Positions 3,092 through 61,544 of a stretch of 64,000 nt of DNA are shown here, one piece after another. Below the pieces are notes generated by a model. That model made no database searches, was not told the DNA's origin, and worked only from the letters and a program-made list of their open reading frames with translations. The stretch is from Odiellus spinosus (lineage: Eukaryota; Arthropoda; Arachnida; Opiliones; Phalangiidae): positions 11,472,501 to 11,536,500 of the forward strand of contig OY987226.1 in the NCBI GenBank assembly GCA_963920705.1, read 5' to 3'. The translations under genes and the position numbers were made by a program. The stretch's first letter is position 1. The number at the start of each line of letters is the position of its first letter.

Positions 3092-5020
3092 CAATTTATG
3101 AATCTGCAATATACCATACCCTTCCAAAGGCCATGCAGGGTTGCCAGAGGCTTCGAACCCAATGCACCACTCCGGATGTTATATTACACACTGTCTTTAG
3201 TCTTTTACACCGAGTTTTTACATCAGTTTATACACCAAATGTTTTTTACACGTACACCGTTTTTGATAAAAAAAATCCCCAAAATGTTTTTGTTGTGACT
3301 TCTAAGCTGTGTTTTTTCCTTGTTTAGGCTTACCCCGATAAGCTATGGGTCATTAACTATCGTGTTCGAGGGCCAGAGACACGACTAAGAGATCCTTTAC
3401 TATGACAAAGTTTGTTCAAAGCCATTGATTTTTTCCCTCCTTTTTTTCCCAAAAAAAGCTCTTTTGGTTCTAGAAGCTAAGAGAGGACCTTATACAGTTT
3501 TCCTCCAAATTATTGATTAGTAAGGCTAGCCGCAGTCTCTAGTGGCTTCAAAGAGAAGCGTTACGCTTCCCTAATTAATAATTTCGAAGTCAAATTTCAT
3601 TAAAAATCAATTTATAATTAGGTTAGGATCTCGCGTAATTTTAAGGCTTAATAATTAGCGCGTTTAATTTTATTTCAAATTAAAGTTATAAATAGAGAGG
3701 GAAGAATATTTTAAATCGATCATATTTTTAAAAATAGAAAGAGAGAGATGAGATTATGAATCCCGGAAGTTAGTTTTGTTAGCGGAAGTGGTCGGTGTAT
3801 ATGTTCGTATATATGTGTTTCAGTCAATCGGGGATAAGGGGTAATGTGAGGTTTAGGCATGATTTGAAATATTTAAGCTTACATTTCTTATATGTACAAA
3901 ATCTTAACAATATAGGCATATATCGTGTAAAATTAGGCTTAGCAAGGAACCACGACGAAACTCGTACATAACCATTGAAAGATTAGGCCTAAATTGACGA
4001 TTTCAAACAAGAAATGACGTAGCTTCGCTATTAGCGACCATTGGTATAATCCTACAAGTTAGGCTAATTTGGACCTTTCCTTAACCCCAAAATAATCTAG
4101 AAAATCATATTGCATTACTCCATCATAGTTTGGTGCTTTTATGGGATTTATTATAAGTATGGCCTGCGGAGGGGTATAGGTCACGCCTCTGTTGCTTGGT
4201 GACGCGCCTTGGATGGCCCAAGGTGGTCGAGGAAAATTCGTACGCCATTTTTGGGTCGTTGAACCCCCTGACCCCTACGTTTTTCCCCTCCATCCATCGA
4301 AAATAATACAATAATATTGCTTCAAAAATATGTTTGGTATAATTTTGGTAATATAAGTATAGAACTTTTGTTTAGAGTAAGTTTGACGCTAGAGCTTGTC
4401 CAAAAGTGACTGGATCAAAATAATAGAAACAAGGTATATAGTTAAAAAGGTTAATTTTATGACATCATTGTGTAAACCACAATTGTGTCACTACAATTTC
4501 GTTAGCTATAGGCACTAGAAGTTGAAACTATAAATCATTTCTAAAGTTAATCCAAAAATCTTACAATTTGACTTATGTTAAACTGTAAAACTTTACTGTT
4601 GAAATTGCGAAGTACAGTTATTTTCAACAGTGTTATAAAACGGTTGAAAATTATTTTAAAGTCTCTATTAAGAACGCGACTATGATCAGAAGTATATTTT
4701 TAAAGGGCAAGCTCTTGTTTGCGACTTATAAGTATGCGCAACCCGAAACAAGGTCTGAAAACAAAGACCCAAACTACACAATGCATAGGAGAGTAGCGCC
4801 ACCCTTATATCATCTTAGGAATATGAAATTTTCCCAAACTAAACAATTGGGGAAGGCTTTTTTTCTCGGTTGCGTGTCTCGTAAGCTACGAGAAATGTCA
4901 TTTTAACATAAATTACTACGTTAGGCTTAGTTGTTTACTCGTTTTATTGCTATATAGTGTATATTTTAAGATTTTTTCGTTTCGGTATCTATTCGAATTG
5001 GCTCTCTGGGGTGTTCTTAG
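2649..5020. other. Non-coding stretch upstream of the first visible receptor exon
   Basis: I see no exon here. In particular, no pore-loop sequence (the QQGCD-type motif that should precede the exon at 5,021) was found. The stretch holds a 22-base A run at 3,061-3,082 and scattered short open frames without recognisable content. The reading frame of the exon at 5,021 continues open upstream to about 4,947, but the translated residues do not resemble the receptor family, and a CTCTCTGGGGTGTTCTTAG acceptor fits better. Confidence 0.5.
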
Positions 5021-7482
<2,462 letters not shown>

Positions 7483-13601: not shown

Positions 13602-15084
13602 TTTGGAAAATAGGGCTTTTGAACAAGAATAGTTTGCCAAAAACAAAATAAACTTTATTCATCATGACTAATCATGATGAAAATATTCCCTCATTTTGCT
13701 CAATGTAAAATATCCGATTTTTGCCCCCTGAAGATGTTAAATAATGTACGTTATATATTTGCAGATGCTTGGTAAAAAATCAAATACAAGTAATGCAGCA
13801 GTCAATTTCCAGTAATCTCCTTCTGAAAAGGTAAGAATATTTTATTATTGTCGCCCAATACTAGCCACGAGTACCCGAAATAATTTATAGTGGCCAAAGT
13901 TTTTCCAAAACTTTAAAGCATTTTATCTTTGGTCCCAAAACTATTGTTTTATCTTTCGATCTAACATAATCCAAGGGCCAAGTTCGTCTCGTAGTTTACT
14001 TTACTGATATAGCTCTCAACGCTTCTCCTTGTTTTGAATTTAACCAATAGAAATCGGCCTTTACCTTATTACCTTCTCAGACTGGTATTTATTTAAAACA
14101 TAGGTGTCTCTGTTTAGTCTTGTTTTACTCTTTCTCTCATAATCCCATTGACATATTCCCAGTGGAAATTCTATTGTACGTTCATTAGGAAAAGCGGAAT
14201 TAAATAGAAGGGCCGGGATTGCTATTTGTCTAGTGTTTCGTATCCGTTCTATCACGTGGTGTATATACTGAATTCGTGAACCAAACTATACTTATGTCGA
14301 AGATAAGTTTACGGGAAATAGGCTGAGGCTGTATAATACATCTATTCAAACTATATACTACTAAACATTGAGGGTAAACGAGAACAAAATAAGATATAGA
14401 TCCACATGAAAATACGGTAAGGATATCGCCTGAGGAATTCTTAACGCTAAAAATATACTTTTCTACCTTAAACAATGGTGCCAAGGAGCGTTGGATGCGA
14501 TTCCAAATTTACCTTTATTTTCTGTACAATTTTCGTTTTGGTTCAAGTTCCCGCCAAAGATTAAAGGCGGGAACGGAAGAAACGTCTCGCGGCTGAATAT
14601 CAAAAGGCGATAGTTGTTGCGACTATAGGAACAGTACGAAGCGAATATATTCTCTCGGGAGCGTCTTGTCCGGCCGAATCTGTCAGGCTCCATTTAGTCT
14701 GATAAGAGTAGAGTCCCGGGTTTCGGCACCTCATTACAAAACAGAAAAGGAAGTACTTCCCGCCCCAACCCCATTCTTCTGCCATTCCGCTTTTGCATAA
14801 GCAATGGAAAATTTGGGACCCGGCATTTTGACTATTTGCTATCCGTATATTTATCTTTCGTAGGTCTTTCTGTTGTTGGCATTGTATTTTTTGTTTTACT
14901 ATTTTATACCATATGGTTTTGTTTATTCGTTGAAAGCCCTGCTTTCTAAATATTTCGAATTTCGTCTGAATTTTATTTTAATAATTTAAATAATAATTTA
15001 TGAACTGATAGCGAAAATAGAAGAGACAGGCTCTTATAGTTAAAGGAAGAATCATGCCCAGCAACGCGCTTTTCTTTGTGTCAT
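13602..15084. other. No gene seen
   Basis: Several overlapping short minus-strand frames between 14,061 and 14,785 have no recognisable domain, no consistent start context and no splice-site support. I treat them as chance. No repeat structure was noted. Confidence 0.5.
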
Positions 15085-15378
15085 ATTTGATGCGTATTTA
15101 TGCGTCAAATGATGCGTATTTATGCGTCAAATGATGCGTATTTATGTGTCAAATTTGATGCGTAAATATGTCAAATTTGATGCGTATATACATTGTCAAA
15201 TTGATGCGTATGTGTCAAAATTGATGCGTATGTGTCAAAATTGATGCGTATATGTGTCAGAATTGATGCGCATGTGTAAAATTTGATGCTTATATATGTT
15301 TCAAATTTGATGCTTATATATGTTTCAAATTTGATGCGTATATGTGTCAAATGTGAAGCGTATATACGTGTCAAATTT
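15085..15378. repeat. Minisatellite with TTGATGCGTAT units
   Basis: About thirteen tandem units of 20-25 bp follow the pattern TTGATGCGTATATGTGTCAAA. The first units (TGATGCGTATTTATGCGTCAAA) and the later ones (TTGATGCTTATATATGTTTC) differ in steps, which indicates progressive spread of variants along the array. The minus-strand open frame at 15,171-15,374 (repeated FETYIS/THIRI blocks) is a by-product of the repeat. Confidence 0.9.
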
Positions 15379-16446: not shown

Positions 16447-17105
16447 TCCATTTCTCTGTAATAAAAACGGATTGCACCATTAGAAAGTAGACATTCCGTT
16501 CCTTAATTTCGAATAGTAAAATTGACATGAGACATTCGAAAAGGATACCTCGCCTGTAGATACGAATTGAGCAAAAGTCCAAAATATTACCGCTATATTT
16601 AAATGGTCGTAACTTCTCACTAAAATCACCTAGACCAAAACAGCTTACACCGTTCGATAGTAGGCATTCCGTTCCTAAATTTTGAATAATAAAATTGACA
16701 CGAGCCATTCGAAAAGGATGTTTTGCCTGTAGATACAAATTGAGCCAAAGTCCGAAATATTACAGCTATATTTAAATGGCCGTAACTTTTCACTACAATA
16801 TCCTAGACCAAAACTGATTGCACCGTTAGAAAAAAGACATTCCTTTCACTAATTTTCAATAATAAAATTAACACGAGCCTCTTGAAAAGGATGTCTCGCA
16901 TGTAGATACAAATTGAGCAAAAGTCCAAAAATGACCCCTATTTTTAAATATATCATAGGCCAAAATTGATTGCACCGTTCATAAATAGACATTCCGTAGA
17001 TTATTATATGATTATAAACTTTACAAATGCTGTTTGGGAAGGAACTCTAGTCACTTGATTGAAATTGAGCACAAGTTCAAAAATTACCCCTATTGAAATG
17101 TATTG
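16447..17105. repeat. Tandem 190-bp-class repeat, array 1
   Basis: Four degenerate units each carry GATTGCACCATTAGAAAGTA, GACATTCCG, ATTCGAAAAGGAT, TTGAGCAAAAGTCC and TGGCCGTAACTT in that order, about 190 bp apart, with the last unit truncated. Related arrays with the same order of blocks occur at 45,270-45,860 and 62,060-62,420, so this is a dispersed satellite-like family rather than a single local duplication. Confidence 0.8.
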
Positions 17106-20348: not shown

Positions 20349-22295
20349 TAGAGCTCGGAATTTGTGTAACTTTAATTTATTGGATAGATCTATTGAATTA
20401 AATTCAGATATTATCCGTTTGGTTAAAAATAGACTATCAATCCAGTTAAGTTGTACAAAGATAAAAAATAATACTCATCTCTTTTTATCCGAAAATGCCC
20501 TTATCCTAGAATATTACCCGAGTTATAAGAAAATTTAAAAATTTATATTTTCTCCAAAATAATAAATAAAATTTAAACTTAAAAGTTCGGTTTTATTTTT
20601 TATTTGAAAATATATATTTTTTTTATTTTGCACGAATTCTTGGCGAAGGTTAAAGGAAGAATGTAACCTAATAAGTGATTTTCTATCGAGTTTAAATAGG
20701 CCTAATTCACTAAAAAAAGTTTACAAAACAAATATTAAACTAGAAATAAATTTAAAACTTACCCGGAAAATAAACTTAGCGGGATTCATGAAGATCATCA
20801 TTTCCTCGCGTATAAGGTCTATAGGGACCAATCGAATGCGTTTGTAAGTCTCGTAGAGATCTCGAGTGAACGACGGGCCTTTGCTCATTGGTCGTTAGAT
20901 CTTACGCGGAGGCAATTCATGAATCGCGCTAAGCCTATTTTCCTGGTAAGTTTCAAATTTATTTCTAGTTTAATATTTGTTTTGTGAACTTTTTATTGGT
21001 GGATTAGGATTATTTAAACGATAAAAAATCCATAAAAAACATCACTTGCTATTAGGCTGCATTCTACCTTTAAGCGAAGACCTGTTTTAAGGAAAGCCTA
21101 AATGCAACCTTAGGGAAGTTTATTTCCAGCACCAGTCCTGCAGATTCCTTTCATTACCAACCCCTTAAAAATGCGTTATATTAAAAATTCGGTATACCTC
21201 GACAGTGTAGTAATAATCGCGCGCAAGCTGCTAATTTTTTTCGCTGTAGATTTTTTCCATATCATATATGTACCGTATAGCTTAAAGAAGGAGGTTTAAT
21301 ATGTGCTCAGACTTTATGATAAGGATATTAGCTTTTTTTATTCACTCCTAAAACTCCCGCCATCCGACATACCCGACCCTTATTCTCTTTTCGAAGAGTT
21401 TTCATTTAAAACTGCTACTGGGGAAAATTAAATTTTTGCCTTAGCTCAAGCTATGGGATGGTTCGCCTCTAGCTAACATCACGACTAAGATATGAAAATC
21501 CTAAAAATAGATTTCTCCTAAAAACTAAAAAAAAAAAAAAAAAAAAAAAAAACTTTTAACTCTTTTTTGGTTAAAACTTTAAAAGCTTCGTTTTAAGCTG
21601 CCCGAATTTTGTTTAAAATTCAAGTTTAAAATTGACCGAACATGTATGTTAATGTATCTTTAGTAGTTTTAATTTTGATAATTAAAGTAAGAAGGTCGCG
21701 GGTTAGGTTTTTCATGAGCTCTAAATAGAAATTGAGTAATATTTCCTTAATGGTAGTTAAAAAGAGATACAATATTTATATGCATAGAAAATCTTACAGT
21801 ACAGTAAATATTAATATTTTACAATCACCATTTTCGGAATTTTAAAACCAAAATTCCCCACAATAATACGTCATCACTAGAGTCACGTGGCTATTTCTAG
21901 AGCCTACAGTTAATTCTTGCTTAATAAAAAAATTTGAAACTCAAGTTTCTTTGCGAATTTTAACCCAAACTGAGATCTTTTAGCTAGAATGTAGTAATGT
22001 AGTCGATTCCTTTCAAAATAATTGAAATACAATTATTATATTTCATTCTACATTTATCGAGAAATATCATATTTTTATTTTCGCGCTATCCCGTTTGAAT
22101 AAACGTGTAATTTGTTTATTAATCGAGCTTAAAATTTTATCTCCAAATAATTCGTATCCATTTAATACGTCTGTTTATATAATTTGTGCTTTTATATTAA
22201 TAAACCATTTATCCGAGATTATAATATCTGAAAAAAAAAGCCTTGTTATCAATAGATATCCAAAGTTATTCATTATCCTATTCCGATTAACAAGT
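20349..22295. mobile_element. Broken hAT-like element, inverted relative of 51,133-51,634
   Basis: The left end TAGAGCTCGG at 20,349 and the block at 21,925-22,295 match, in reverse orientation and in the matching order, the complete element at 51,133-51,634. Matching segments include ATAAACAAATTAC, AAAATTTTATCT/AGATAAAATTTT and GTTTATATAATT. Between them lie about 1.4 kb of other DNA, including the TTAA element at 20,654-21,069 and a 26-base A run at 21,527-21,552. This copy was therefore interrupted by later insertions and has lost its right terminus. Confidence 0.6.
20654..21069. mobile_element. TTAA-family foldback MITE, copy 2
   Basis: It starts AGGAAGAATGTAACCTAATA and ends GGCTGCATTCTACCT, flanked by TTAA at 20,650-20,653 and 21,070-21,073. 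The interior has the family features GTTTAAATAGGCCTAAT, AAAATAAACTTAGCGGGATT and the complementary GCGCTAAGCCTATTTT, with a central ATTGGTCG pair. It is longer than copy 1 because of a larger central stem. It sits inside the older hAT-like relic at 20,349-22,295. Confidence 0.82.
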
Positions 22296-29797: not shown

Positions 29798-29804
29798 AGC
29801 CAAT

Positions 29805-30103
29805 CAAGAATTCATTCAGGTTCCATAAGAATATGGGAGGGCTGCGATTCAATAACCATCCTCCCAAACTTTGTAGCAAAAGTTCGTCTGCTTCGAATCG
29901 ATCCTGACGTCTATTATTCACCCGCGCCACTAACAACCTTGACATAATATTTAGGGCGATAAAAATGGAGCCGACCGAAAAAAGATCTAAGCGTACAAAT
30001 GTTGCGAAAATTGCAGACGAACTTTTGTTACAAAGTTTGGGAGGATGGTACCAGAGGCTAAAGCTATGCTCCCATATTCTTATGGAACCTGAATGGATTC
30101 TTG
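29805..30103 (-). mobile_element. CAAGAATCC-family foldback, copy A (reverse orientation)
   Basis: It is bounded by CAAGAATTCATTCAGG and CCTGAATGGATTCTTG and flanked by the exact 7-bp duplication AGCCAAT (29,798-29,804 and 30,104-30,110). The arms share a 34-bp outer block (to ATATGGGA) and an inner block (ATCCTCCCAAACTTTGTA), but between these lie about 22 bp that differ between left and right arms. In this copy the CTTTAGCCTCTGGTACC block is on the right, so it is inverted relative to the other three copies. The open frames on both strands here are by-products; no transposase. Confidence 0.88.
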
Positions 30104-30110
30104 AGCCAAT

Positions 30111-30987
30111 GAAATCTCTTCTTAGGCAGCTATCAGAGATATTATTACGTATGCCTCTTCGAGGGAGGGGGGGAAAGGACATGTCATATTTTAGCAAATT
30201 AGGTCAATTTGCATATTTTTAGAAACCAAATACGCACGAGTCACACAATAACCTCCAGTCTCGAAGTGGGGTGGAAAGGGAGAAGAGGTGGCGCCTCATT
30301 TTCCATAAAAAAAAAAAAAACAAATTCAACCGTAACAAAACGAACCATTTTTTTAAGCGGGTTACGCTTATTTAATAGATTAGTTTAGGATTGAGAAGAA
30401 CAGAACTTAAGTGAGAGATTGTAACAGCCATCACCCTTGGAATGGCGGGGTTGGGCTTAGGGATATATTTAAAGGGAGAATGCAGGTCGACAAATTTTAC
30501 ATGTATTAAGAAATAGACTTAAAGGAATAATGTAGCCCTACAAATTAATATCCAAACAGGCAAACCACCGGGTATCTTATTGAAAAATACCAATCGAAAT
30601 ACAATACCATTCGTCGGCCTCGTATTTCTATAATAAGATTAATCCAATTCTAAATTATCTTTAAAATTTAATAGGATTCATTCAGTTAGCGTGAAAATTG
30701 TAGGGTTTTCTTTTTGATTTATACCTGTTCGAGGTTGAATTAATATTACCTTGTGTTTGTGTTGTAAGTTAAGGCAGTTGGAAAATCAAGACTCCGTCCT
30801 TTCCATTTTATTCTTCTATATGTCAGTGATATTTAAGCTGCATTTTGCCACATAAAATGCCTGAAAACCTTTGAACATTTGTTCTGTTGATACTTTTGTA
30901 TATTTTCAAATTCCCCTCTAGCTCAATTATCCCCCCCTGACCAAAAAGTGCCTATATATAACTGCAAAAATTTATTTCTCAAAACTA
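30111..30987. other. No gene; isolated ends of the TTAA family
   Basis: TTAAAGGGAGAATGCAGG at about 30,471 and TTAAAGGAATAATGTAGCCC at about 30,510 look like two solo left ends of the TTAA foldback family without matching right ends nearby. The rest is A/T-rich and without coding content. Confidence 0.45.
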
Positions 30988-31756
30988 AAGAACAACAGCA
31001 ACTCCCCATAAGAGTCTGGGTCCACGTAATGTTAAAAATTTTCGTCTCTTTTATGATAAATTCGTATTATATTATTAAAATAGGGTAGTTGGGGGATAAT
31101 TTAAAGCTAAAATTCGAGCTCACAACTGTAAATTTTGGGAATTACAACGAATGGAAGGTTTCTTCCATAATGTAAAGAATAGGAAGAATCTATGACTTCC
31201 GTGCCGGATATGAAAGCCTTCCCCCACACGAAAATCTTGAACGGTTATTATTTTAGATTCATAATTATGTTAGGAAAATATTAGGAAAGAATTATTTTGT
31301 AACTGCCACGGGTATAGTGCTGGCGGCAAAATGAAATTCGTATATTTTTGGTCTACTATGCCTCGAAATCCTCGAAAACGCCTGTAGAAGTGTTCCACTT
31401 GTCAAGCATTCATGCAGTAGGCTTTTGCTAGCTTTACAGGGGCCGTGCAAAGACTATATAGCTTACTTGAATAGTCTTTGGTGTATAAGAAACTCGAAAA
31501 ATAAATAGAGAAATCATACCAATTAGAAGATACTGGAGTAGTATCTTTAATTTTTATTTCATATTAAACAAAACACACTTGTATAAAACGGACAAATTAT
31601 TCATTTAACGCTAAGGTTTTCTACGTTTAACGTATGTCTGGTAGTTCAAGCTCAGTGGCATCTTCACACACTACACGCAATTTTGACTGGTACCAACTGC
31701 CTCGATCTTCATGGCGACGATAACCAAGATACCAGATTACGCTGCTAACGTGAACA
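30988..31756 (+). repeat. Left inverted arm of the transposon
   Basis: This arm pairs base for base with 34,001-34,769 (position sum 65,757). It contains the transposase carboxy terminus from the CVH of the SWIM finger onward, the stop codon and the presumed polyadenylation signal on the minus strand. The inner boundary falls inside the coding sequence, at TGTTCACG. Confidence 0.95.
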
Positions 31757-33879
31757 CAAGTACCTATCGTCAAACTACCACCTTTGCAATTGCAATACCA
31801 GCCTTTAATGGCATTTGCACCTGTCCCGTTCGGTACATAACGAATTAGAGCTTGGTGAACAGCTGAGGTGGAAAATTGACCAGGCACGCGTATACGAATT
31901 AAGTCATGTTCAACTTTGGACACTTCGACGCTGAAAGAGCCGGATTTCTCTATAGTCAACGCCACATAAGATTCAGCGCGTTTCGTTTTAAAGTCGCTCA
32001 TTACCACCTCACGTACATCACTTTCACGAAGTACAGGGAAGTCTTGAAATTCACTATCCTCAATTCGTTGCCATTTAGACGGTTTGCGAAGCAGATTATC
32101 GCGCTCAACTACTTCCTTAAGAGGATTTTCTTTCGTAGAGACTGCCAGCATTTTTTCGACGGAGTCTTCCCAGGAACCTTTAAGATGTAACTCCGGGTGG
32201 TAGGCGTTCAACAGCGCAGCAGCAATTTGAAGAAGTTCCGGAACTAATGGTAACATATGCACAGGTATACGGTTTTGAAAAAAACGATACACCGTCTGCA
32301 AATGCCCATTCCTAACTTCAACCGGCCACCTGAGGTACGTTACTTGTCGGGAACGATTAACTTCTTGCGTGTTTACTTGCTTCTCGCCTTTAGACAAGAA
32401 CGAAGGCATTTGTAAATCCACACCCAGTTCAGTCAGTACGCTGTTGGAGTCTCGAAAACCGCGGTCTGCCAGTACAACGTCACCAACTTGAAAGAAAGAC
32501 TGGAGTTCTTCCCTCTTTTTGATAGAATGGTTTAAAATGCGCGCGTCGCTATTGCGGCCATTAGCAAAGTAGGGTCTGATTATATTTATTATGTAACCCG
32601 TAGTTGTTACCATTAACATTGGCTTGAGGATATGCTGGCCTTTGTGCACACAGAAGGATTTGTGAAGAACGGTATAGTCCTTGGATCTTCCAACCTTGAT
32701 ATAGGTGCCATCTACAATGGTAATAAGACAATTAGGCTTGTTGTTAGCAAAGAGTTTTACTGCTGCTCCAGATTGATGGTTTGTTATCAGATTGTCACGT
32801 GATAAGTGTTGCAGGCCAAAATGATGTGGCACGAAATACTCCGATAAAGCCATAATAACCGCTTTTACCGTGTTTGATACCGATCTTTCAGTTAAATGAA
32901 ATAAAGTTGATAACACCTTATTGGAGATACCCAATCGTAATTTCACCAATAATACTGCTAGAGCTGTCTTCGACGAACAGCATCTGATGGTACGAATAAT
33001 GTCCTCAATAGTCGAATGCAACTCTAGGAACTCGTGCAGGGACAATGAAGTTAATACTTTACAGTCTTCATCACTTTGTATGAAATTGTCAAAGCTCGGC
33101 GTCCGTAGGTCGTTAACACATTTCCTGAGGTCCTGTAATAGTTGCTCAATGTCCGTGGCAGTCATAATGGTTGATCTAGCGGAAACCTGAATTCCAGCAA
33201 TTATTTCGGTGGGAAGCTCTCCGTTAACGAGATGCGTGGAGCACATTCGGTTGTCCCGATGAATAAATATGGCTCTTTCCACAAATATACTTGTTCTCAC
33301 TTCGGCTTTTACCCTGGTTCGTGTACTAACACCGCAAATGAAGCAAGTCTTTGGCAGGGGCCGAACACAACTGTGCTTTATGGCAATAGTGTTTGATGAC
33401 GTACGCTTTCGTGGTAATTGCGACGTTGATGGCTGAGGTATTGGTGACGGTGATTTATTAGATACTGTGGACTTTGTTGGTTCAGGTACTGTGGACGTTG
33501 ATGGCTCAGGTACTGTTGACGTTGATGGATTAGATACTTGCGTCATTTGTCTTCGTTTTTGTGGTGGAGACGATGACGTTGAAGAGCCATGATCACTACT
33601 GAAGGACGATTTGCTAGCATTTAAGAACGTTTGAAACTTTCGTGACAGACCCGAGCACTTTAAACAAATCTTCGTTGTTTTGCTATTAATTACAAGTGGT
33701 AATAACCCTTTACTAAAACGAAGAAAACGAGCAAAGCCAGCCTTTACGTGAGTGCTTATACCTCTACTTGTACTATTGGTAACTTTCCGATTGCACGCGT
33801 AACATGTATTTGGAGCCATCTCCAAATTCCAAGTGACTCTCACATTGATGTTATTGATAAGGAAAGTTCTTAAGATCAT
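31627..33879 (-). CDS. DDE transposase with HTH and SWIM zinc finger (IS5/PIF-Harbinger/ISL2EU-like)
   Basis: This single intact 750-codon frame probably cuts and pastes its own element. Domains by residue: Cys pairs at 26/29 and 72/75 (zinc-binding treble-clef type); a Ser/Thr/Pro linker (92-160); CxxC-CxxH at 179/182 and 213/216 (THAP-like spacing); a helix-turn-helix around 300-345 (LVKLRLGISNKVLSTLF then LTERSV), as in HTH_Tnp_4; a DDE_Tnp_4 core with D390 (IVDGTYI), D472 (LADRGF) and E521 (RWPVEVRNGH); and a SWIM finger C696-x-C698-x9-C708-x-H710 (WYCNC, then CVH). The catalytic triad is complete. The start is uncertain: Met1 and Met21 both have fair context, and Met21 (GAGATGGCT) lies just before the first zinc motif. 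The last 43 codons lie inside the inverted arm. AATAAA lies about 70 bp after the stop. Exact family placement needs a database search. Confidence 0.92.
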   Translation of the reverse strand: MILRTFLINNINVRVTWNLEMAPNTCYACNRKVTNSTSRGISTHVKAGFARFLRFSKGLLPLVINSKTTKICLKCSGLSRKFQTFLNASKSSFSSDHGSSTSSSPPQKRRQMTQVSNPSTSTVPEPSTSTVPEPTKSTVSNKSPSPIPQPSTSQLPRKRTSSNTIAIKHSCVRPLPKTCFICGVSTRTRVKAEVRTSIFVERAIFIHRDNRMCSTHLVNGELPTEIIAGIQVSARSTIMTATDIEQLLQDLRKCVNDLRTPSFDNFIQSDEDCKVLTSLSLHEFLELHSTIEDIIRTIRCCSSKTALAVLLVKLRLGISNKVLSTLFHLTERSVSNTVKAVIMALSEYFVPHHFGLQHLSRDNLITNHQSGAAVKLFANNKPNCLITIVDGTYIKVGRSKDYTVLHKSFCVHKGQHILKPMLMVTTTGYIINIIRPYFANGRNSDARILNHSIKKREELQSFFQVGDVVLADRGFRDSNSVLTELGVDLQMPSFLSKGEKQVNTQEVNRSRQVTYLRWPVEVRNGHLQTVYRFFQNRIPVHMLPLVPELLQIAAALLNAYHPELHLKGSWEDSVEKMLAVSTKENPLKEVVERDNLLRKPSKWQRIEDSEFQDFPVLRESDVREVVMSDFKTKRAESYVALTIEKSGSFSVEVSKVEHDLIRIRVPGQFSTSAVHQALIRYVPNGTGANAIKGWYCNCKGGSLTIGTCVHVSSVIWYLGYRRHEDRGSWYQSKLRVVCEDATELELPDIR

Positions 33880-33941
33880 GGTTCAAACCAGATATTACAA
33901 TTTTTTTAATGTTTATTAAAGCAGGTTTAATTATTTTTCGC

Positions 33942-33999
33942 CAACCTGGCTGGCAAAAAATATTAAAGACGTCTTTAATATTTTTTGCCAGCCAGGTTG
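33942..33999. repeat. 58-bp perfect palindrome at the inner arm junction
   Basis: CAACCTGGCTGGCAAAAAAT through AAAGAC (29 bases, 33,942-33,970) is followed immediately by its exact reverse complement (33,971-33,999) with no loop; it ends two bases before the right arm begins. It could extrude as a cruciform or snap back during replication. It may be a footprint of the event that built the right arm, or the remnant of an original transposon end. Confidence 0.95.
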
Positions 34000-34000
34000 T

Positions 34001-34769
34001 TGTTCACGTTAGCAGCGTAATCTGGTATCTTGGTTATCGTCGCCATGAAGATCGAGGCAGTTGGTACCAGTCAAAATTGCGTGTAGTGTGTGAAGATGCC
34101 ACTGAGCTTGAACTACCAGACATACGTTAAACGTAGAAAACCTTAGCGTTAAATGAATAATTTGTCCGTTTTATACAAGTGTGTTTTGTTTAATATGAAA
34201 TAAAAATTAAAGATACTACTCCAGTGTCTTCTAATTGGTATGATTTCTCTATTTATTTTTCGAGTTTCTTATACACCAAAGACTATTCAAGTAAGCTATA
34301 TAGTCTTTGCACGGCCCCTGTAAAGCTAGCAAAAGCCTACTGCATGAATGCTTGACAAGTGGAACACTTCTACAGGCGTTTTCGAGGATTTCGAGGCATA
34401 GTAGACCAAAAATATACGAATTTCATTTTGCCGCCAGCACTATACCCGTGGCAGTTACAAAATAATTCTTTCCTAATATTTTCCTAACATAATTATGAAT
34501 CTAAAATAATAACCGTTCAAGATTTTCGTGTGGGGGAAGGCTTTCATATCCGGCACGGAAGTCATAGATTCTTCCTATTCTTTACATTATGGAAGAAACC
34601 TTCCATTCGTTGTAATTCCCAAAATTTACAGTTGTGAGCTCGAATTTTAGCTTTAAATTATCCCCCAACTACCCTATTTTAATAATATAATACGAATTTA
34701 TCATAAAAGAGACGAAAATTTTTAACATTACGTGGACCCAGACTCTTATGGGGAGTTGCTGTTGTTCTT
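34001..34769 (-). repeat. Right inverted arm with mirrored transposase 3' end
   Basis: Plus-strand bases 34,001-34,130 encode the last 43 residues of the transposase (ending ELELPDIR) in the opposite orientation to the main gene. A frame opened in the palindrome (33,909-34,130) reads into it but has no independent start or function. A mirrored AATAAA lies at 34,199-34,204. Confidence 0.93.
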
Positions 34770-34771
34770 TA

Positions 34772-36152: not shown

Positions 36153-36627
36153 GCAACTAATACAGCGACGTCGGCCCCTTTTAGGTTGTGTTTTGGTTCC
36201 AAGAAATTAGTAAGTCGGAGTGATTTTCCTTCTCGGATCAACTCTTAATACCGTATCGGGACTAAAATTCTAATGAAGAGGGTGCGGTCTTGCTCTCAAA
36301 GGGAGAATGAAACCTAACATCAAGTGTTTTTGTTTCTTTATTTCAATTCCTTATCGTTTAAATGGGCCTAATCCACGATTAAAAAAATTACAAATATTAA
36401 ACTAGGAATATATTTAAAACTACTCGGAAAATAGGCTTAGCTGAATTCATGAAGATCCTGAATTTCTGCACAATAACTAATTGGATGTTATTGGAAGTCT
36501 CATGGAGATCTCGCCTTAACGAGGGGGTATTTCCTCATTGGTCGATGACCCTTCAATGCGAAGAAATCAGGATCTCCATGAATCCAGCTAAGCCTATTTA
36601 CCGTTTTAAGTTTATTTCTAGTTTAAT

Positions 36628-37423: not shown

Positions 37424-37724
37424 AGAGAAACTTGGAGCTAAAAATGGAGCAGATTATGTATTTATTTTCGCCTATTCCACTAGTGAAAAAAAAATTTCAA
37501 ACAAATGTTAAACTAGAAATAAATTTAAAACTTACCCGGAAAATAGGCTTAGCGGGATTAATGTACCTTACACGGAAGTAATTTAGGATCTCCATGAATC
37601 CCGCTAAGCCTATTTTCCGGGTAAGTTTTAAATTTATTTTGTAAACTTATTTACTGTTGGATTAGGCCTATTTTAACGATATGGAATCGATAAAAAACAC
37701 CTGTTATTAGGTTGCATTCTCCCT
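37424..37724. mobile_element. TTAA-family foldback MITE, copy 4, with a different left end
   Basis: Flanked by TTAA (37,420-37,423 and 37,725-37,728). The right end is standard (GGTTGCATTCTCCCT) and the inner stem AAAATAGGCTTAGCGGGATT / GCTAAGCCTATTTTCCGGG is near perfect. The left end, however, reads AGAGAAACTTGGAGCTAAAA, unlike the other copies. A related end (GGGAACTTTGAGCTAAAAAT) occurs alone at 52,464, also after TTAA. This copy may be a chimaera of two TTAA families. Confidence 0.75.
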
Positions 37725-37728
37725 TTAA

Positions 37729-38571
37729 TTTTAAGCTTCAAGTTTCCCTTTAAGTTTAGATAAGACCATCCACTCGAACGTACATCAATCAAACTCATCT
37801 TCGTATTCATCATGGGACGCGAGCCACCGTAAAATGGGATCATGTTATCGCGAGAATTAGTTACTATTTTCAACACAAGCAAAGCTAGGATACCTTCATT
37901 ACCTATATATTAAATATTTCGTAGAGATGTAAAGGAGTCTTAAGATTTCATCTACTGAAGATTCAAAGCGATTCTTTAGTTAATGAAAATAAGATTAAGG
38001 TTACAGTACGTACAAAACTAGGATAACCTCTCTCTCTATATGAGGCTGTATACTAAATCATAGAAATATCAGAAGGAGATATCTTTGCTAATGCTGAAGA
38101 ATGATACTGAATTTGACTAACTCTATCCCCTGTTTGACACTCCATCTTCTTATACATAATTTTGAAACCTTTGGACCTGCGGGTCTTATATTCGACTTGA
38201 TAGAAATAATTGAACCAAGAGCGGGTTCAATCTTTTAAATACCCCAGACAATTAAATATTCCAAATCCTCAGCAAATCTTGAAATATTTTAACTAATCAG
38301 AAATACGGTAAATTTTTCAGATTTGAAATATAGTACAGATTTTGCACGGATGTGTCCTTTAAAAACAAAAACGCGTGGCTATATTTAGGAAACTATTCGT
38401 GTACCTGTTCTTAAAATATTGTAACATCGAATAGTAAACCTCCTACTCCTTTTCGTATAGATAGTTCTTCCCCAAAATATCTGTAAATTGATTTTAGCTC
38501 GGCACGCGACCTTTCTTCCCGTATGGCCATCCCCCTATTGCTAGTTGATTCTCAATATATAAACTCAATCC
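37729..38571. other. No gene seen
   Basis: No exon, tandem repeat or transposon end recognised. Confidence 0.45.
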
Positions 38572-38578
38572 ATAATAC

Positions 38579-38896
38579 CAAGAATCCATTCAGGTTCCAT
38601 AAGAATATGGGAGCATAGCTTTAGCCTCTGGTACCATCCTCCCAAACTTTGTAAGAAAAGTTCGTCTGCAATTTTTGCAACATTTGTACGCTTAGATCTT
38701 TTTTTCGGTCGGCTCCATTTTTATTACCCAAAATATTATGTCAAGGTCGTTAGTGGCGCGGGTTAATAATATAATGTCAGGAGCGATTTACTAGAAAAAT
38801 CGATTCGAAGCGGACGAACTTTTGCTACAAAGTTTGGGAGGATGGTTATTGAATCGCGGCCCTCAGATATTCTTATGGAACCTGAATGGATTCTTG
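38579..38896 (+). mobile_element. CAAGAATCC-family foldback, copy B
   Basis: It is bounded by CAAGAATCCATTCAGG and CCTGAATGGATTCTTG and flanked by the exact 7-bp duplication ATAATAC (38,572-38,578 and 38,897-38,903). It contains the family's central segment (GCAACATTTGTACGCTTAG, CGGTCGGCTCCATTTTTATT, GTCAAGGTCGTTAGTGGCGC). The copies are very similar over the whole length, suggesting recent spread. Confidence 0.9.
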
Positions 38897-38903
38897 ATAA
38901 TAC

Positions 38904-42157: not shown

Positions 42158-42164
42158 GTGCTAA

Positions 42165-42460
42165 TAAGAATATGGGAGCATAGCTTTAGCCTCTGGTACC
42201 ATCCTCCCAAACTTTGTATCAAAAGTTCGTCTGCAATTTTCGCAACATTTGTACTCTTAGATCTTTTTTCGGTCGGCTCCATTTTTATTGCCCTAAATAT
42301 TATGTCAAGGTCGTTAGTGGCGCGGGTTAATAATATAATGTCAGGAGCGATTTACTTGAAAAATCGATTCGAAGCAGACGAACTTTTGCTACAAAGTTTG
42401 GGAGGATGGTTATTGAATCGCGGCCCTCCCATATTCTTATGGAACCTGAATGAATTCTTG
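42165..42460 (+). mobile_element. CAAGAATCC-family foldback, copy C, left end clipped
   Basis: The right end is complete (CCTGAATGAATTCTTG). The left lacks the outermost 21 bases and begins at TAAGAATATGGG. The flanks GTGCTAA (42,158-42,164) and GTGCTAC (42,461-42,467) match at six of seven positions, so the clipping happened at or after insertion without disturbing the target duplication. The length fits copies B and D minus 21 bp. Confidence 0.85.
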
Positions 42461-49376: not shown

Positions 49377-49380
49377 TTAA

Positions 49381-49735
49381 AGGGGGAATGCAACCTAATC
49401 ACAAGTGATTTTTTTTATCGATTCCTTATCGTTTAAATAGGCCTAATCTACCAGTAAAACGTTTACAAAACAAATATTAAACTAGAAATAAATTTAAAAC
49501 TCACCGTCAAAATAGGCTTAGCTGAATTCATGGAGATCTTAAATTGCCTCCCTGCAAGGTCTAGCAACCAATGAGCCAAGGCCCGTCGTTCGCGCGAGAT
49601 CTCCACGAGACTTAAAATCGCGTTCGATTGGTCGCTAGACCTTACACGCGAGGAAGTCAGGATCTCCATGAATCCCGCTAAGCCTATTTTCTGGGTAAGT
49701 ATTAAAATCACTTGTTGTTAGGTTGCATCCTCCCT
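49381..49735. mobile_element. TTAA-family foldback MITE, copy 5
   Basis: Starts AGGGGGAATGCAACCTAATC and ends TTGTTAGGTTGCATCCTCCCT, flanked by TTAA (49,377-49,380 and 49,736-49,739). The inner stem AAAATAGGCTTAGCTGAATT / AATCCCGCTAAGCCTATTTT and the central ATTGGTCGCTAGACC block are clear. It lacks the ATTTATTTCTAGTTTAAT segment that copies 1 and 2 have near the right end, so it carries an internal deletion. Confidence 0.85.
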
Positions 49736-55333: not shown

Positions 55334-55754
55334 AAGGGAGAGTGCAACCTATATAAAAACAAGTGATTCCTTATCGTTTAAATAGGCCTAGTTCAACCAT
55401 AAAAAACAATTACAAACAAATATTAAACTAAAAATAAATTTAAAATTTACAATGAAAATAGGCTTAGCTGGCATCCTGAGCGACCAATGGCATTATTCGA
55501 TGACTCTTATATGTGGTATACAGGATCTCCTGAATCTACGAATCTAACTAAGCCTAATTTCTAGTTTTTACTGGTGGATTAGGCCTTTTTAAAAATCACA
55601 CTAGCTGCGTCCACACACTTCAGTAAATCGATTTGTAAAGATAATGCGTGAACACGTGATGTTTTAAACGATTCCTCGGTTTTATTACACCGTTTGAAAT
55701 CGATTAAGAGATGTTAGTATGACCGTAGCTTATTTTATTACCTCCAGGCTCCCT
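55334..55754. mobile_element. TTAA-family foldback MITE, copy 6, with nested repeat
   Basis: The left end AAGGGAGAGTGCAACCTAT follows TTAA (55,330-55,333); the right end CTCCCT precedes TTAA (55,755-55,758). The inner stem AAAATAGGCTTAGCTGG / CTAACTAAGCCTAATTT is present with ATTGGTCG-like bases shifted. Between about 55,605 and 55,735 it contains a fragment of the AATCGATTT repeat (AGTAAATCGATTTGTAAAGA, CACGTGATG, TTAGTATGA), which replaced part of the right half including the TTGTTAGGTTGCAT block. Confidence 0.75.
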
Positions 55755-61220: not shown

Positions 61221-61537
61221 CAAGAATCCATTCAGGTTCCATAAGAATATGGGAGCATAGCTTTAGCCTCTGGTACCATCCTCCCAAACTTTGTAACAAA
61301 AGTTCGTCCGCAATTTTCGCAACATTTGTACGCTTAGATCTTTTTTCGGTCGGCTCCATTTTTATTACCCAAAATATTATGTCAAGGTCGTTATTGGCGC
61401 GGGTTAATAATATAATGTCAGGAGCGATTTACTTGAAAAATCGATTCGAAGCGGACGAACTTTTGCTACAAAGTTTGGGAGGATGGTTATTGAATCGCGG
61501 CCCTCCCATATTCTTATGGAACCTGAATGGATTCTTG
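61221..61537 (+). mobile_element. CAAGAATCC-family foldback, copy D
   Basis: Complete copy bounded by CAAGAATCCATTCAGG and CCTGAATGGATTCTTG, flanked by the exact 7-bp duplication ATGTAAG (61,214-61,220 and 61,538-61,544). Orientation and sequence agree closely with copy B. Confidence 0.9.
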
Positions 61538-61544
61538 ATGTAAG

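Follow-up and report, generated by a model that had tools for sequence, protein, structure and literature searches.

Spy transposons are described, in those parts of the published accounts that were available, as inserting into AAATTT without target duplication (PMC4482050, PMC11304231). According to one of these accounts, an element with 467-bp terminal inverted repeats (TIRs) is active in human cells, and the short-TIR donors tested were non-functional (PMC11304231). A transposon that shares their target site, and that departs from them in its architecture, lies in a stretch of 64,000 nucleotides from Odiellus spinosus (Arachnida; Opiliones), namely positions 11,472,501 to 11,536,500 of the forward strand of contig OY987226.1 (assembly GCA_963920705.1), which is hereafter called the window. 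Both termini of this element are 3' ends, set in mirror orientation. Very probably, a Spy-type element became a head-to-head palindrome with two 3' ends and was amplified in that form, its unstable centre giving rise to deletion derivatives such as the copy in the window, which has the following parts:

30990..34767, minus strand (that of the transposase): putative Spy-type palindromic transposon, internal-deletion derivative (from repeat, flank and deletion mapping)
30987..30989, no strand: AAA half of the AAATTT target (from the flanks of 34 elements and an empty site)
34768..34770, no strand: TTT half of the AAATTT target (from the same flanks and empty site)
30986..31756, plus strand: left arm, the transposon 3' end with the transposase stop, target AAA included (repeat finder)
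34001..34771, minus strand: right arm, the 3' end copied in inverse, target TTT included (repeat finder)
31627..33819, minus strand: intact transposase open reading frame (ORF) of 730 aa, with DDE_Tnp_4 (PF13359) over residues 369-538
33924..33970, plus strand: unit of 47 nt at the fold centre that forms a hairpin and is present twice in certain other copies
33942..33999, no strand: perfect 58-bp palindrome adjoining the right arm, with its fold centre at 33970/33971, common to other copies
33999..34001, no strand: deletion junction, with 2,185 bp of the model palindrome gone and one filler T at 34000 (from mapping to the model palindrome)

The inverted arms measure 771 nt each and differ at a single position (31531 versus 34226), a match that is not attributable to chance; a preliminary description of the locus had already noticed them, at 769 bp and with one difference. 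Each arm holds the last 42 full codons and the stop of the transposase ORF, followed by its downstream DNA. It had also proposed that the element bears two 3' ends, and this is borne out by the arms and by the copies read elsewhere, in which both ends are 3'. The best Pfam match of the 730-aa transposase is PF13359, covered over its full profile (E=1.4e-19), and a match to HTH_Tnp_4 falls below the cut-off of that family; a sequence search of solved structures with the same protein returned nothing meaningful (best E=0.91). Keeping one intact transposase gene, the window copy may still be autonomous. The 58-bp palindrome had been missed in the preliminary description. As single-stranded DNA, positions 33924-34000 fold into one long hairpin (z = -11.3), and the 47-nt unit folds with z = -2.5, a value equalled by 4 of 200 shuffles. 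Within the window, no further copies of the element were found and the Rfam and tRNA scans gave no matches, and a search of viral contigs for relatives yielded 5 pattern matches, none of which was confirmed. The motif AAAGAC/GTCTTT was considered as a repeated binding motif in the arm and dropped, the 2 occurrences found (0.5 expected) being reached in 190 of 2,000 shuffles.

The limits of the element follow from its flanks. Thirty-four elements (the window copy and loci L009 to L041) were read from tip to tip, and in all of them AAGAAC...GTTCTT is preceded by A and followed by T, the consensus layout being AAA/GAAC...GTTC/TTT with no further duplication (the right tip of L018 is mutated). At one site, a paralogous empty site provides complementary evidence: the joined flanks of L012 align with an uninterrupted part of L013 (590 of 605 positions identical), in which AATT, that is, AAATTT, occupies the position of the L012 element. 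Because there is no duplication and the empty site reads AAATTT, the element proper spans 30990-34767, and the TA previously placed outside each arm as a duplication is illusory, the flanks of the window copy being AAA (30987-30989) and TTT (34768-34770). Adjoining the empty-site paralogue, L013 also contains a lone 58-bp fragment of the transposon tip (6405-6462, about 95% identity).

The earlier assignment to the Harbinger type has to be replaced as well, since the AAATTT flanks, without duplication, agree with the Spy group, and a Harbinger element with a TA duplication is ruled out by the flanks and the empty site. PIF/Harbinger (3-bp TWA duplication and a second Myb/SANT gene) and ISL2EU (2-bp AT duplication and a YqaJ protein) were rejected on account of the lack of duplication and of any second ORF of at least 130 aa in the element, and Galileo and the P superfamily (7-bp duplication and a P-type transposase) on account of the lack of duplication and of DDE_Tnp_4 being the best Pfam match. 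As to the features given for Spy, the family inserts into AAATTT without target site duplication and carries one DDE transposase ORF of the size described, about 700 aa (here 730 aa, with PF13359); it departs from the layout of one transposase gene between TIRs (a reported structure of Spy and not a stated requirement), in that both ends of the copies read are 3' and L041 has two genes. Judging by target site and domain, the element would be of Spy type (PHIS superfamily), an assignment that falls short of proven clade membership.

The same flanks bear on a possible artefact. Fold-back chimeric reads are a known class of artefact, and they could have introduced false palindromes at the sequencing or assembly stage. 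This is extremely improbable here: the mirror ends at the transposon tips and the outer flanks differ between the two sides, the A...T setting is found in 34/34 elements, identical asymmetric junctions turn up at separate loci, and the contigs that carry the 34 elements are 24.6-35.4 Mb long.

The window belongs to an assembly of 443 Mb. With the arm as query, the 40 scored matches (out of 1,115 candidates) were all identical over 769 bp, and each of the 32 loci containing the 39 non-window matches has two inverted 3' ends, with arm lengths and internal junctions that vary among these arm-selected loci. With the transposase as query, 61 of 2,067 candidates were scored, all of them (window included) with the full 730 aa at 98-100% identity and some with a stop; two adjacent head-to-head pairs are among them, one being L041. 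The mirror-image structure is present in all 34 elements read tip to tip. At 20 other loci, chosen by transposase rank and not by the arm (none is among the 34), the 500 bp or so preceding the start codon were read, and an inverted copy of the same transposon is reached in 20/20. The palindromic form thus recurs at numerous separate insertion sites and is not confined to this locus. At L020, positions 1504-1621 match element positions 903-1021 (part of the transposase gene) at 81.5%, possibly an older, diverged relative.

Genome-wide there are 791 exact copies of the 28-nt tip (391 + 400) and 109 + 131 exact transposase-start sites, and a probe for the coding 3' end has 326 + 338 exact matches. 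Among the first 100 exact tips, 18 are single and the rest make up 41 convergent pairs, which span 2,292-5,967 bp (bar one of 8,909 bp), and scaling this pattern to 791 tips gives about 400-470 loci; the first 100 probe matches form 45 convergent pairs, with 10 unpaired. For C1 and C2 to 11.5 Mb, where tips and start sites are fully listed, an exact inverted tip lies 5' of the start site in 26 of 28 cases, and its own 3' tip is present in 26 of 28 (some of these start sites belong to copies also read). The two start sites without an exact 5'-side tip were read, and the inverted arm is present in both. The 5'-side tips lie at distances of 940-3,123 bp (3,123 for each of the L041 pair), and this variation does not fit a single native 5' end. 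Among the copies read, which leave most of the family outside the sample, there was no ordinary one-gene copy, and no native 5' end was found in them either.

Are the 771-bp arms, then, just the TIRs of an ordinary long-TIR transposon, homogenised by gene conversion and lengthened with internal sequence? Spy TIRs are reported to range from 5 to 691 bp (PMC11304231), and those of Galileo take up internal sequence, as stated in the available part of its description (PMC3573991). This reading is quite unlikely, given that TIR length is not fixed in this family, going from arms of less than about 360 bp (from coordinates, C1:4667843) to a full half of 2.98 kb that includes the entire transposase gene, and that a separate 5' region is present in none of the elements read.

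The complete form is represented by L041, a palindrome of 5,965 bp that is 99.6% self-complementary and contains two full 730-aa transposase frames without stops, head to head, with 301 bp between their start codons. When the 34 elements are mapped to a model palindrome (the window half plus its reverse complement), no deletion is needed in one element (L041), one in 27, two in 4 and three in 2, leaving out of the count the small indels within aligned pieces (including a 45-bp gap common to several copies), and the aligned pieces explain the length of each element to within 21 nt. L064, outside the 34, matches the model with 3 deletions. The window copy is explained as a deletion derivative of a full two-gene palindrome such as L041, its mirrored arm not having been born at this locus. 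One of the origins offered in the preliminary description, in which two copies fused head to head with loss of internal sequence, comes close to the family pattern. In sum, what was observed there is confirmed, and its interpretation is partly supported.

In most elements, 0-4 letters are shared at the junctions or 1-7 filler bases are present, with the exceptions of L009, L022 and L029 (15 shared letters), one L027/L039 junction (19 shared letters) and L025 (14 filler bases). Short shared letters or filler are typical of error-prone repair, and together with arm lengths that differ from locus to locus they would suit a scenario in which each copy gained its mirrored arm independently, by template switching in aborted transposition or gap repair, with no common palindromic parent. 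Such repeated gains are very unlikely: the fold centre is shared, a complete palindrome exists and 27 of the 34 elements are one deletion away from it, identical junctions occur at different sites, and the arms differ by 0.26% both within and between elements (in a sample biased to near-identical arms). The junction P1731/P2975, counting both orientations, recurs at 9 of the 34 loci, and the presence of the same junctions at different sites implies that the derivatives themselves have moved.

The deletions in the amplified palindrome are concentrated at its centre. After merging orientations, and taking the first deletion only for multi-deletion elements, there are 19 distinct primary deletions, 18 of which touch the fold centre. 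Eleven have an endpoint at most 61 bp from it, where about one is expected (mean of about 1 and maximum of 6 in 20,000 trials for each of two nulls, random endpoints and the same lengths slid). Separately, L033, L042, L046, L051, L053, L054, L057 and L058 have the hairpin-forming unit of the centre in duplicate (47 bp), the mark of a separate derivative lineage, and L056 has an additional centre unit between its two head-to-head genes. Re-formation of a palindrome from a derivative was considered for C1:15051590-15055000, where both arms are shortened alike, and rejected, as the junctions differ between the arms. Regarding the genes, an in-frame stop is present in 10 of the 16 full-length transposase genes read across the 34 elements, and copies affected in this way would depend on others. 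Shared variants amount to 23 synonymous and 35 non-synonymous and singletons to 24 and 97, for a neutral expectation of 71% non-synonymous; this indicates weak constraint at most and is not used as support.

What we infer beyond these observations concerns the origin of the palindrome, the enzymatic mechanism and present activity. An element without a 5' end may have folded onto itself at the hairpin-forming 47-nt unit near its start (33924-33970), or may have recombined there with a copy in inverse orientation. Palindrome formation there would have produced a parent form of about 5.97 kb, with two full transposase genes head to head around the fold centre and both termini 3', that is, a unit bounded by two working 3' ends, which could then spread. 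The transposase would pair and cut two identical 3' ends, making the native 5' end dispensable; because the tips of the copies read have nothing else, these ends must be a usable pair. The palindromic unit would insert into AAATTT without target duplication, and deletions, most of them starting at or spanning its centre and possibly caused by hairpin or cruciform processing, would leave asymmetric derivatives that retain the two outer 3' ends and are mobilised in turn, one of them being the window copy (the palindrome minus 2,185 bp). A more ambitious version is that the giant inverted dimer is the only propagating form of the lineage, the loss of the 5' end having been repaired by palindrome formation, the symmetric two-gene form having replaced the ordinary one, and the instability of the centre generating non-autonomous derivatives; we give it an even chance of being right.

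Several points weigh against this explanation. The copies read are only a sample of the family, the arm-selected set was picked for an arm identical to that of the window, and the transposase matches scored are 61 of 2,067 candidates. The 18 single tips include 7 with matching arm sequence nearby and 11 without a partner tip or exact arm probe, and in the 41 tip pairs the coding-end probe is present on both sides in 29, on one side in 8 and on neither in 4; a few ordinary or otherwise different copies may hide among those 11 single tips and most of the 12 incomplete pairs. The 61-bp limit was chosen post hoc, other limits giving 7/19 (30 bp), 9/19 (45 bp) and 12/19 (100 bp). Mobility would follow from the presence of copies at different sites, and not from a transposition assay, and, with no native 5' end among the copies read, the origin step is not observed. 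The Spy label for the protein is based on domain and target site and not on phylogeny. Furthermore, shortened TIRs of cgSpy are reported to retain 42-60% activity (PMC11304231), so that long arms would not be strictly required.

Other features of the window include a MITE-like repeat (resembling miniature inverted-repeat transposable elements) of 300-320 bp with inverted ends, in 4 copies of 90-97.5% identity (29803-30103, 38579-38898, 42164-42460 and 61221-61539), and dispersed, partly self-inverted repeats of about 73-90% identity (2317-2648, 20677-21073, 36286-36627, 37470-37729, 49377-49708 and 55358-55471), a family that also adjoins several of the transposon loci fetched. An exon-like ORF at 4827-5264 with a Lig_chan domain (PF00060, E=1.3e-21) resembles a fragment of an ionotropic glutamate receptor gene, and just downstream of this ion channel exon lies a 27-bp tandem repeat (5369-6274; 35.5 copies, 94% matches), in which several frames are open. 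Further tandem arrays are found at 16464-16949 (a 173-bp unit in 2.8 copies) and 15077-15378 (22/46 bp).

Instability is expected of long near-perfect palindromes, yet one of them has spread by transposition to hundreds of loci. If the explanation proposed here is true, a Spy-type transposase needs no more in nature than two identical 3' ends, mobility can be recovered by a broken element that turns palindromic, and the distinct natural deletions, at least 19, are a record of the breakage and repair of a palindrome centre in animal cells. This would also have a bearing on the design of symmetric Spy vectors for gene transfer.

No description of a palindromic transposon lineage with two transposase genes was found in the open-licence literature, judged mostly by titles and the beginnings of abstracts, which does not imply its absence from print. 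Related systems share some of the properties of this one, as far as the available portions of their descriptions go. Galileo and other Foldback-like elements of Drosophila have very long and variable inverted ends, recruit internal sequence and form many derivatives; unlike the present family, Galileo belongs to the P superfamily, makes 7-bp target duplications and has its longest TIRs in copies without a transposase ORF, never in near-complete ones (PMC3573991). KolobokP is likewise a lineage of eukaryotic DNA transposons with long duplicated ends, but these are direct instead of inverted, and it encodes a homing endonuclease (PMC9587614). An inverted dimer with two transposase genes appears in neither of the two as described (PMC3573991, PMC9587614). 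Symmetric piggyBac donors with two right ends (RE/RE) excise, and integrate with a hyperactive enzyme only; these are laboratory constructs, however, and with the native enzyme the left-end counterpart (LE/LE) is inactive and RE/RE does not integrate (PMC7351741). Inverted copy number variants under the ODIRA model resemble the family in their long palindromic junctions and secondary rearrangement, although they involve chromosomal segments, whereas the palindrome here is a multiplying mobile element (PMC10766186). Spy itself (e.g., cgSpy from Colletes gigas), reported from arthropods, shares the insertion into AAATTT without duplication, the ORF of about 700 aa and, in some elements, long TIRs (PMC4482050, PMC11304231). 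In contrast to the single transposase gene between TIRs of 5-691 bp reported there (PMC11304231), the parent form in Odiellus spinosus consists of a full inverted dimer, in which there are two genes and both ends are 3'. The structure is genuine, and it sets the family apart as an unusual form of a Spy-type transposon, whose novelty is the palindrome with two 3' ends.

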